Below are positions 39,476 through 51,260 of a DNA stretch of 64,000 bases, in pieces. The notes below the pieces were generated by a model. That model did not search any database. It was not told the DNA's origin and saw only the letters and a list, made by a program, of their open reading frames with translations. Position numbers and translations under genes: made by a program. Every line of letters starts with the position of its first letter. Position 1 is the first letter of the stretch. Source of the stretch: Myxococcota bacterium (GTDB taxonomy: Bacteria; Myxococcota_A; UBA796; CAJQPC01); assembly GCA_023150845.1 (NCBI GenBank), contig JAKLKD010000002.1, positions 25,530 to 89,529 of the forward strand, given 5' to 3'.

Positions 39476-39994
39476 ATGTCTGATGAGTCTCTGGGCCATG
39501 GCGGCAGCTTGATGCGTGACGAGCGAGTGCGTCGCGCCCGCCGCGTGCTGTCGGAGTACATGAACACGGGCGGCAAACGAAACACCCGCCAGCGGGACGT
39601 GATCGTCGACGTGTTCTTTGAGGTGGGCTCGGAGCGCCATCTCTCGCTGCAGGAGCTCCAAGAGCAGGTGCAGCGTGTCGAGCCTGGCGTCGGCTTCGCG
39701 ACGGTTTACCGCACGATGAAGATGCTCACGGACGCCGGCGTGGCCCACGAGCGCCGCTTCGACGAGGGCACCACGCGCTACGAGCTCGCCGAGGTGGGTG
39801 AACACCACGACCACCTCATCTGCATCGACTGCGGCCACATCTTCGAGTTTGAGGACGACCTCATCGAGGCCCGGCAGCGAGAGGTCGCCACACGCTTCGG
39901 CCTGGAGATCACCACACACCGCCACGAGATCTACGCGACCTGCGCCCGCGGCAGCGCGTGTGAGCGGCGCCTGGACGCGGCGAAGAGCGCCTGA
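39476..39994 (+). CDS. Fur-family transcriptional regulator
   Basis: I choose ATG 39476 (MSDESLGHGGSLMR), giving 172 residues. The winged-helix domain contains TRQRDVIVDVFFEV and GVGFATVYRTMKMLTDAGVAH. The dimerisation domain has the family metal motif HHDHLICIDCGHIFEFED. A second Cys pair (CARGSAC) completes a structural zinc site. It could sense iron, zinc or peroxide; the sequence does not decide between Fur, Zur and PerR. The last codons (RRLDAAKSA then stop) are the source of the tandem repeat that follows. Confidence 0.88.
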   Translation: MSDESLGHGGSLMRDERVRRARRVLSEYMNTGGKRNTRQRDVIVDVFFEVGSERHLSLQELQEQVQRVEPGVGFATVYRTMKMLTDAGVAHERRFDEGTTRYELAEVGEHHDHLICIDCGHIFEFEDDLIEARQREVATRFGLEITTHRHEIYATCARGSACERRLDAAKSA

Positions 39995-40440
39995 GGCGGC
40001 GCTGGGCGGGCGGTGAGTTAGGGCGCGAGTCCGGCGGCCTGGTTGCTCGGCGCCTGGAGTGGCGGCTGGATGTGTCCAAGGGCGCCTGAGGCGGCGCTGG
40101 GCGGGCGGTGAGTTAGGCGCGAGCCCTGCGGCCTGGTTGCACGGCGCCTGGAGTGGCGCCTGGAGTGGCGCCTGGATGCGGCGCAGAGCGCCTGAGGCGG
40201 CGCAGGTCGGGCGGTGAGTGAGGGCGCGAGCCCTGCGGCTTGGTTGCCTGGCTCCTGGAGTGGCGCCTGGACGCGGCGCAGAGCGCCTGAGGCGGCGCAG
40301 GTCGGGCGGTGAGCTAGGGCGAGCCCTGCGGCTTGGTTGCTCGGCGCCTGGAGTGGCGCCTATACGTGTCCCAGGGCGCCTGAGGCGGCGCTGGTCGGGC
40401 GGTGAGCTAGGACGAGCCCGGCGGCCTGGTTGCTTGCCTG
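39964..40440. repeat. Five tandem units of about 93 bp derived from the fur-like 3' end
   Basis: Units start at about 39964, 40057, 40151, 40258 and 40351, with lengths of 93, 94, 107, 93 and 90 bp. Shared blocks include GCGCCTGAGGCGGCGC, TCGGGCGGTGAG and CGGCCTGGTTGC. Unit one contains the last codons and stop of the Fur-family gene. Later units keep the same reading (for example unit four, EWRLDAAQSA then stop). Unit three has an extra internal 12-13 bp duplication, GAGTGGCGCCTG. GGCGCC-TGGAGT-GGCGCC at several joints is a perfect 6-bp hairpin. No spacer-repeat pattern of CRISPR type is present. Confidence 0.9.
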
Positions 40441-40518: not shown

Positions 40519-40551
40519 AAAAGAGGACCACCCGAAGGATGGTCCTCTTTA
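40519..40551 (-). terminator. Terminator after tRNA-Leu (minus strand)
   Basis: Read on the minus strand, AAGAGGACCATCC pairs with a GG-T-GGTCCTCTT arm across a short TTCG loop. The tract TTTTCGTTTT follows. It ends the secG-tRNA-Leu transcript. Confidence 0.75.
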
Positions 40552-40556
40552 GAGGA

Positions 40557-40644
40557 TGGTGCGCGAGGAGGGACTCGAACCCTCACAGCCTCTCGGCCAC
40601 AAGCACCTCAAACTTGCGCGTCTACCAAGTTCCGCCACCCGCGC
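40557..40644 (-). tRNA. tRNA-Leu (anticodon GAG)
   Basis: A class II tRNA on the minus strand. Acceptor GCGCGGG pairs with CTCGCGC, the D-arm carries TGGTAGAC, and the anticodon loop TTGAGGT (anticodon GAG) sits on a CAAGT/GCTTG stem. It has a long variable arm and GGTTCGAGTCC in the T-arm. CCA is encoded. It lies 44 bases after secG, the same secG then tRNA-Leu(GAG) order known from E. coli (secG-leuU). Confidence 0.93.
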
Positions 40645-40688: not shown

Positions 40689-41195
40689 TCAAGGCGAGGG
40701 CGGCGCAGAAGATCCCGGGGCCGGGGCCGCCGGATCCGTCGGCGCTGCGGGCGCCGCGGGGGGCGTAGCGCCCTCGACGGGAGTGCCCTCGGCCGGAGGC
40801 GGCGTGGTCAGCTCAACCGGGGCGGCGTCGGTCGGGGCCGCGGGATCCGCGGCGGGCGCGGCGGGATCGGTCGCGGGGGCCGCGGGGCCGACGCCGAAGC
40901 CTTCGCCCTCAGCGTCGAGGTCGAGCTCAGGGGTCTCCTCGATCTCACCGCCGGTGCCGCGGTTCATGCGGTTGGTCGTCACGGCGAGGGTGATCGACGT
41001 GACCATGAACAGCACGGCGACGACCTGGGTGATGCGGCTCAGCGGAGCCGCGGCGCCGCGAGGGCCGAACATGCTGCTGCTCGCGCCTCCGCCGAAGGCC
41101 GAGGAGACGTCGCCGCCTTTGCCAGGCTGCAGGAGGATGACCACCACCAAGATGAGGCAGAGGATCACATGAAGGACGGTGATGAACAGGAGCAT
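40689..41195 (-). CDS. secG: Preprotein translocase subunit SecG with Pro/Ala tail
   Basis: The first about 75 residues are SecG: two membrane helices separated by LLQPGKGGDVSSAFGGGASSSMFGPRG, the family signature. The remaining about 90 residues form a low-complexity acidic then Pro/Ala-rich tail (DPAAPAADPAAPTDAAP), which is not needed for the translocon function of the family. SecG assists SecYEG-SecA translocation. Downstream of tpiA in the gap-pgk-tpiA operon. Confidence 0.92.
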   Translation of the reverse strand: MLLFITVLHVILCLILVVVILLQPGKGGDVSSAFGGGASSSMFGPRGAAAPLSRITQVVAVLFMVTSITLAVTTNRMNRGTGGEIEETPELDLDAEGEGFGVGPAAPATDPAAPAADPAAPTDAAPVELTTPPPAEGTPVEGATPPAAPAAPTDPAAPAPGSSAPPSP

Positions 41196-49361: not shown

Positions 49362-51260
49362 ATGAAGCTTCACACCCTCGCGCTCCTCACTTTGTCCGCC
49401 CTCACGCTGAGCGCCTGTAAGGACGACGCGCCCGTTGGCGAGTCCGAGGACAGCACGCCGACGGGCGGCGACTCCTCCGTCTCGGTCACTGACGCGGACG
49501 GCGACGGGATCTCCCCGACCGACGGCGACTGCGACGACGCGAACTCGTCGGTCTTCCCCGGCCGCACCGAGGACTGCAACGGCATCGATGACAACTGCAA
49601 CACGATCATCGATGAGGGCTTCGGCGACGCCGACAACGACAAGACCGCGGACTGCGTGGATGCCGAGGACTGCGACGGCATCGACAACGACGGCGACGGC
49701 GTGGCGGATGAGGGCTTCGGCGACGCGGACGGCGACGGCGTCGCGGACTGCGTCGGCACCGAGGTCTGCGACGGCGTAGACAACAACGGCGACGGCCAGA
49801 TCGACGAGGGCTACGACGCCGACGGCGACGGCTTCACCCAGTGCAACGAGGACTGCAACGACGCCGACGCCTCGGCGTACCCCGGCTCCTCCGAGGTCGC
49901 GGGTGACGGCTCGGACAACGACTGCGACGGCTCCATCGACGAGGAGGGCATCGCCGAGGGCTCCATCTGGATCACCGAGGTGATGGTCAACCCCTCGAAG
50001 GTCACCGACCCCAAGGGCGAGTGGATCGAGCTGCACAACCCGGGCACCGCGCCGGTCTACCTCAACGGCCTCACCCTCACCTCGGCCTCCGGCGAGTCCC
50101 ACATCATCACCTCGGCCTCTCCGCTGGAGATCGCCGCGGGTGACTTCTACGTCCTCGGCCTCAACAAGGACAAGGGCACGAACGGCGGCGTGACGGTGGA
50201 CTACGTCTACACCGGCATCGCGCTCTCCAACGAGTCCGACGAGATCGCCCTGACCTTCGACGGCACGACGATCTCCCACCTCGCCTGGGACGACGGCGCC
50301 ACGATGCCCGACCCCGACGGCGCCACGGTCATGGTGGACCCCACGGCCTATGGCTCGGACGAGACGAACTTCACGGCCTGGTGCGCGGCCACGAAGGTCT
50401 GGGCGTCCAGCATGGACAAGGGCTCGCCCGGCAGCGAGAACGAGCCCTGCTCGACCTTCGACCACGACGGTGACGGCTTCACCGGCGACCAGGGCGACTG
50501 TGAGGACTACGACGCGGACATCTACCCCGGCGCGCCGGAGAAGGACGCCGCGAAGGACAACGACTGCGACGGCGTGGTCGAGCTGATGCCCACGGCCACG
50601 GCGGCGATCCTCTCGACCTCTTCGCTCAAGCACTGCGACTACCTCTACCTCGACGGCAGCGGCTCCTACGACCCCGACGGGTCCGCGGTGACCTACGCCT
50701 GGGAGCTCGTCTCCGCGCCGAGCGGCTCGAAGACCACCACGTCGGACATCGCGACCACCACGAGCCAGAAGCCCAGCTTCACGCCTGACCTGCCGGGCAC
50801 CTACATCTTCTCGCTCACGGTGAACGACGGCGGCACGAACTCGCTGCCCACGACGCTCTCCGTGACGGTCGGCTCGCAGACGGCGAACACCTTGCCCGTC
50901 GCCAACGCGGGCTCGGACCAGAGCGGCTCGGAGTCGGTGACCTGCCAGTCCAAGAGCTACGGCGCCTACTACGAGTGTGATGACTGCAGCGACTATGACT
51001 TCGAGCTGAGCGCCTCGGCCTCCGCCGACGCCAACAGCAGCGATCACATGACCTACGCCTGGAGCTTCGTGTCGGGCTCGACCTACGCCACCATCGACGA
51101 CGCCACCAGCGCCACGCCGACGGTGACCCTCTCCGGTGTGCCCGCCACCTACGGCACGACGGACAGCCAGGCCGTCCAGCTCTTGCTCACCGTCACCGAC
51201 TGCTACGGCGGCACGGCGACGGACACCGTGACGGTCACCTTCTCCTGCACCGGCACCTGA
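49362..51260 (+). CDS. MopE-like Asp/Cys-repeat lipoprotein with LTD and PKD-like domains
   Basis: The true start is ATG 49362 (MKLHTLALLTLSALTLSAC, lipobox), giving 632 residues. Residues about 45-205 carry repeated acidic motifs of MopE type (DCDDANSSVFPGRTEDCNGIDDNCN, in part; CDGIDNDGDGVADEGF; CDGVDNNGDGQIDEGY), probably calcium or metal binding. About 210-350 resembles a lamin-tail domain (IWITEVMVNPSKVTD, GEWIELHNPGTAPVYLNGL). Two PKD-like beta domains follow (LYLDGSGSYDPDGSAVTYAWEL and TVTLSGVPATYG). It is probably an extracellular surface or matrix protein. The binding partner is unknown. Confidence 0.85.
   Translation: MKLHTLALLTLSALTLSACKDDAPVGESEDSTPTGGDSSVSVTDADGDGISPTDGDCDDANSSVFPGRTEDCNGIDDNCNTIIDEGFGDADNDKTADCVDAEDCDGIDNDGDGVADEGFGDADGDGVADCVGTEVCDGVDNNGDGQIDEGYDADGDGFTQCNEDCNDADASAYPGSSEVAGDGSDNDCDGSIDEEGIAEGSIWITEVMVNPSKVTDPKGEWIELHNPGTAPVYLNGLTLTSASGESHIITSASPLEIAAGDFYVLGLNKDKGTNGGVTVDYVYTGIALSNESDEIALTFDGTTISHLAWDDGATMPDPDGATVMVDPTAYGSDETNFTAWCAATKVWASSMDKGSPGSENEPCSTFDHDGDGFTGDQGDCEDYDADIYPGAPEKDAAKDNDCDGVVELMPTATAAILSTSSLKHCDYLYLDGSGSYDPDGSAVTYAWELVSAPSGSKTTTSDIATTTSQKPSFTPDLPGTYIFSLTVNDGGTNSLPTTLSVTVGSQTANTLPVANAGSDQSGSESVTCQSKSYGAYYECDDCSDYDFELSASASADANSSDHMTYAWSFVSGSTYATIDDATSATPTVTLSGVPATYGTTDSQAVQLLLTVTDCYGGTATDTVTVTFSCTGT

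Follow-up and report, generated by a model that had tools for sequence, protein, structure and literature searches.

A Tandem Array Founded on the 3' End of a fur-Family Gene in a Myxococcota Bacterium, Very Probably a Neutral Minisatellite

Gene Neighborhood

The window, that is, the whole stretch of 64,000 nucleotides that was analyzed, carries on its plus strand a gene for a fur-family regulator (39476–39994), which was matched by the ferric uptake regulator model PRK09462.1 with an E value of 1.8e-30, under that model's curated cut-off, and which has a 95% identical ortholog in a sister species. Its upstream neighbor is rplQ, encoding ribosomal protein L17 (38831–39322, plus strand; TIGR00059, E 5.8e-33). 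Converging on fur from the minus strand is a tRNA-Leu (gag) gene (40557–40644), found with both ARAGORN and Rfam, and the next gene downstream, also on the minus strand, is secG (40689–41195; TIGR00810, E 2e-25). A predicted terminator hairpin on the minus strand (40520–40550) adjoins the tRNA gene; it lies outside the array described below and is conserved in the sister species. Throughout, G000 denotes the genome studied, G001 its congener (Myxococcota MAG, MAG.430) and G002 a genome from a different genus in the same family.

Much of the taxonomic order (loci L004–L038) keeps the arrangement rplQ-fur>-<tRNA-Leu-secG-tpiA, and some members have tRNA-Leu and secG inverted. Where fur and the tRNA gene face each other directly, the spacer between them is mostly 37–250 bp in relatives and 563 bp in G000. 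Given the conserved gene order and these mostly short spacers, the array expands a convergent spacer. Two further loci, L016 and L015, have spacers of 432 and 688 bp, in which an array was not detected.

Structure of the Array

Five head-to-tail units occupy positions 39954–40436. Unit starts, set by anchoring on the recurring GCGCCTGAGG, fall at 39954, 40047, 40153, 40248, and 40341, and the units, all read on the plus strand, measure 93 bp (39954–40046), 106 bp (40047–40152), 95 bp (40153–40247), 93 bp (40248–40340), and about 94 bp (40341–40436). All five share a right edge, GCGGCCTGGTTGC or GCGGCTTGGTTGC, which in the last unit is reached at about 40434. Across all pairs the units are 84–95% identical, units 3 and 4 being the closest (94.6%). 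Tandem Repeats Finder (TRF), run on the window, reports a base period of 93 with 3.0 copies (score 430) and a dimer period of 201 (score 625) over 39954–40361; in 1,000 dinucleotide shuffles of the region, no array with a period of at least 30 was reported. A preliminary description of this DNA had recognized five units of about 93 bp, and TRF, the unit alignment, and the shuffles agree with it on this point; the array starts 10 bp earlier than it had proposed.

Several features distinguish the individual units. Unit 2 owes its extra length to a nested 12-bp repeat, GGCGCCTGGAGT, which is present at its end in 2.8 perfect copies (40143–40176, plus strand; TRF). A block variant, GTGTCC.AGGG, is common to units 2 and 5, so that the unit order reads A-B-A-A-B. 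Together with the 201-bp dimer period, this order suggests that copying involved more than a single unit per event. The preliminary description had later units reading EWRLDAAQSA followed by a stop, which is correct for units 3 and 4; the corresponding reading is EWRLDVSKGA in unit 2 and EWRLYVSQGA in unit 5. Likewise, the GGCGCC-TGGAGT-GGCGCC hairpin that it had placed at the joints is intact at two of the four (2/3 and 4/5) and broken at the others.

Founder and Uniqueness of the Array

Unit 1 consists of the last 41 bp of fur, including its TGA codon, and 52 bp of spacer, in keeping with the earlier proposal that the first unit is the end of the fur-family gene. The Fur protein of G001 is 95% identical to that of G000, and the ends of the two genes match (..GCGAAGAGCGCCTGA); the DNA 3' of the stop codon is unrelated. 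As the gene end is common to both species and the array is not, the gene end represents the earlier state and gave rise to the array, which supports the suggestion that the array arose through duplication of the end of the gene. Readthrough extension of Fur was ruled out by eye, there being an in-frame TAG eight codons past the fur TGA.

The array is present at a single locus in G000. A permissive search of that genome (E ≤ 1) returned only short, chance-level matches elsewhere, no plasmid match was found, and the 57 other genomes of the order gave only two weak matches of 48–54 bp. Thus, the unit has none of the dispersed copies that would have marked it as a general repeat family unrelated to fur, the alternative raised in the preliminary description, and an origin as a MIRU- or REP-like dispersed family is ruled out by the same result. 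The unit is private to this locus and built from local sequence.

The same gap in G001 also holds arrays. The contig bearing fur ends inside an array with units of 94–95 bp, and the contig bearing tRNA-Leu, secG, and tpiA ends in the same array, beside a second one of 83-bp units. Essentially, the 94–95 bp unit occurs only at these two contig ends; if the two contigs abut, the gap is about 1.4 kb. The arrays of G000 and G001 were not shown to be homologous: their local alignment score of 28 compares with 20.4 ± 4.6 in shuffles, 24 of 300 of which scored as high, and a relation is not recognizable.

Proposed Origin

We consider it very probable that the five-unit array after fur is a neutral intergenic minisatellite of the variable-number tandem repeat (VNTR) type; its genus tends to form such arrays. 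It is composed of imperfect head-to-tail copies beyond chance expectation, and its unit is confined to one place, both of which are features of this class. In the history that we propose, the 93-bp stretch across the fur stop codon would have been duplicated in tandem, and the copies would then have multiplied, partly as pairs of units, through replication slippage or unequal exchange, before diverging by 5–16%. The array would have been tolerated because it sits in a dispensable gap between converging fur and tRNA-Leu, outside the terminator on the tRNA side. "Unstable DNA" would be the best of the options put forward in the preliminary description.

Two observations count against this account. 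A unit length of 93–95 bp is common to unrelated arrays of two species, which plain slippage leaves unexplained. Additionally, the 33-nt reading frame of the gene end is free of indels and the same TGA terminates all copies.

Arrays and Unit Lengths across the Genus

In sampled sequence, TRF detected 11 noncoding arrays in 1.15 Mb of G000, 12 in 0.49 Mb of G001, and none in 0.40 Mb of G002. The resulting rates, about 10 and 24 per Mb in G000 and G001, are rough, since gene calling relied on a simple codon model and three rows of the G001 sample come from the fur gap. Most of the noncoding arrays in these two species are private in sequence and a few are related across both; a related 42-bp unit, for example, occurs at one place in each. 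Arrays also lie at contig ends, namely at the starts of C43 and C59 in G000 and of C2, C11, and C13 in G001, and at the ends of C165 and C566 in G001, which suggests that the assemblies are broken by arrays and that array number is underestimated.

Other repeats were noted in passing. A palindromic repeat, TTGACCAAGG..TTGGTCA, partly in 21-bp tandem and likewise related across the two species, folds strongly (z −4.3) and is scattered over three to four sites in each of them with strands counted once (L063:1547–1680; G000:C47:6157–6257, C424, C426, and C191). Noncoding arrays with a period of 41–42 bp or double that value, mostly unrelated in sequence, occur in both species at L116:4160–4459, L093:6164–6290, L153:15281–15363, L167:15430–15774, L170:12921–13012, L160:7290–7433, L107:7662–7778, L089:1–266, L099:1–200, and L112:2370–2581. 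Within the window, positions 49565–49832 hold a 96-bp tandem repeat that is apparently coding and Asp-rich (DCDG..DNNGDGQIDEG type) and whose product may bind metal; further coding repeats of a similar kind are present in the genome samples.

The best lags of the significant noncoding arrays cluster at 41–42, 83–86, and 93–95 bp, the last class including arrays from the fur gap of each species. By count, 16 of 23 arrays in the discovery set have a period no more than 1 bp away from a multiple of 10.5, where about 29% would be expected. Such sharing of lengths by unrelated arrays of the genus could reflect a process that counts DNA length, possibly in whole helical turns, and not sequence, although we hold this to be unlikely. 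In the specific form of this explanation, which we regard as quite improbable, a protein bound to one face of the helix or the copying of small circles would generate or keep the arrays, the fur array among them, with units clustering at 42, 84, and 94.5 bp whatever their sequence. Phasing at 10.5 bp is significant against uniform lags (Rayleigh R 0.68, p 3e-5), and the fur gap of each species carries 93–95 bp arrays that are unrelated to those of the other. However, the signal is carried by the 42-bp class, a few members of which are related to one another, and with one value per class it weakens to p 0.14. Furthermore, the pattern was seen before it was tested, and it is treated as a lead. 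The remark in the preliminary description that the unit is close to nine helical turns is right numerically, and the sister array matches it in unit length; phasing is not established. If unit lengths were indeed shared across the genus, they would offer a way into the question of how tandem duplications arise in bacteria.

Tests for Function

A functional array, in which each unit serves as a protein-binding site, a terminator, or an RNA hairpin and shields fur from the oncoming tRNA-Leu gene, is very improbable. Its position between converging genes, its GC-rich and hairpin-capable joints, and the presence of an array in the sister species as well would all accord with such a role, but that sister array is unrelated in sequence, and relatives manage with 37–250 bp and no array. 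No terminator-like site (a G+C-rich hairpin followed by a T-run) was found within 39954–40436, the only such sites in the neighborhood lying outside the array, and this leaves the terminator array that had been suggested at the outset unsupported. The proposal of a structured or hairpin array fared no better. Taken singly, the units have folding z-scores between −1.1 and +1.2 and do not outperform shuffled sequence, the whole region has a folding z of −1.5, none of the 32 predicted consensus pairs shows compensatory changes in the five-unit alignment, and an Rfam search returned only the tRNA; a structured RNA element is not supported by these results. Folding at the level of shuffles, the lack of terminators and of compensatory changes, and a joint hairpin that is intact at only two of four joints leave a role in termination or binding unsupported.

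Because the longest exact repeat within the array is 41 bp, ordinary short-read assembly could resolve its copies, although an identical copy may have been collapsed. That the array is false or its copy number wrong through misassembly is highly improbable: G000 is a fragmented draft of 444 contigs and several arrays lie at contig ends, but the units differ by 5–16% and the array is internal to a contig of 89.5 kb, flanked on either side by conserved genes.

Comparison with Known Systems

Mycobacterial interspersed repetitive units (MIRUs) are tandem units of some 40–100 bp between genes, and their ends can carry stop codons. As generally described, they resemble the fur array in these respects. 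MIRUs form one dispersed family, whereas the fur unit is confined to a single locus. Literature searches on tandem repeats between genes of Myxococcota or Myxococcus returned nothing.

A close parallel is provided by the tandem repeats of Borg elements, which change rapidly, have independent origins, and can start within the terminal part of an open reading frame (PMC9879509). The fur array is consistent with this pattern. Unlike Borg units, which are perfect and adenine-rich (PMC9879509), those of the fur array are 84–95% alike, GC-rich, and located on an apparent chromosome.

Bacterial minisatellites, or VNTR loci, are a standard class that is used in multilocus typing (MLVA; PMC2884548). 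Like them, the fur array consists of imperfect units, tens of bp long and arranged head to tail, at a single intergenic locus with private sequence; it differs in being known from one strain and in having an unusually clear founder, the 3' end of a gene. We regard the array as genuine and as a minisatellite of an ordinary sort, in a genus where such arrays are numerous. Given that clear founder and the unrelated arrays that occupy one gap in sister species, the fur locus offers a clean example of the birth and replacement of intergenic arrays.
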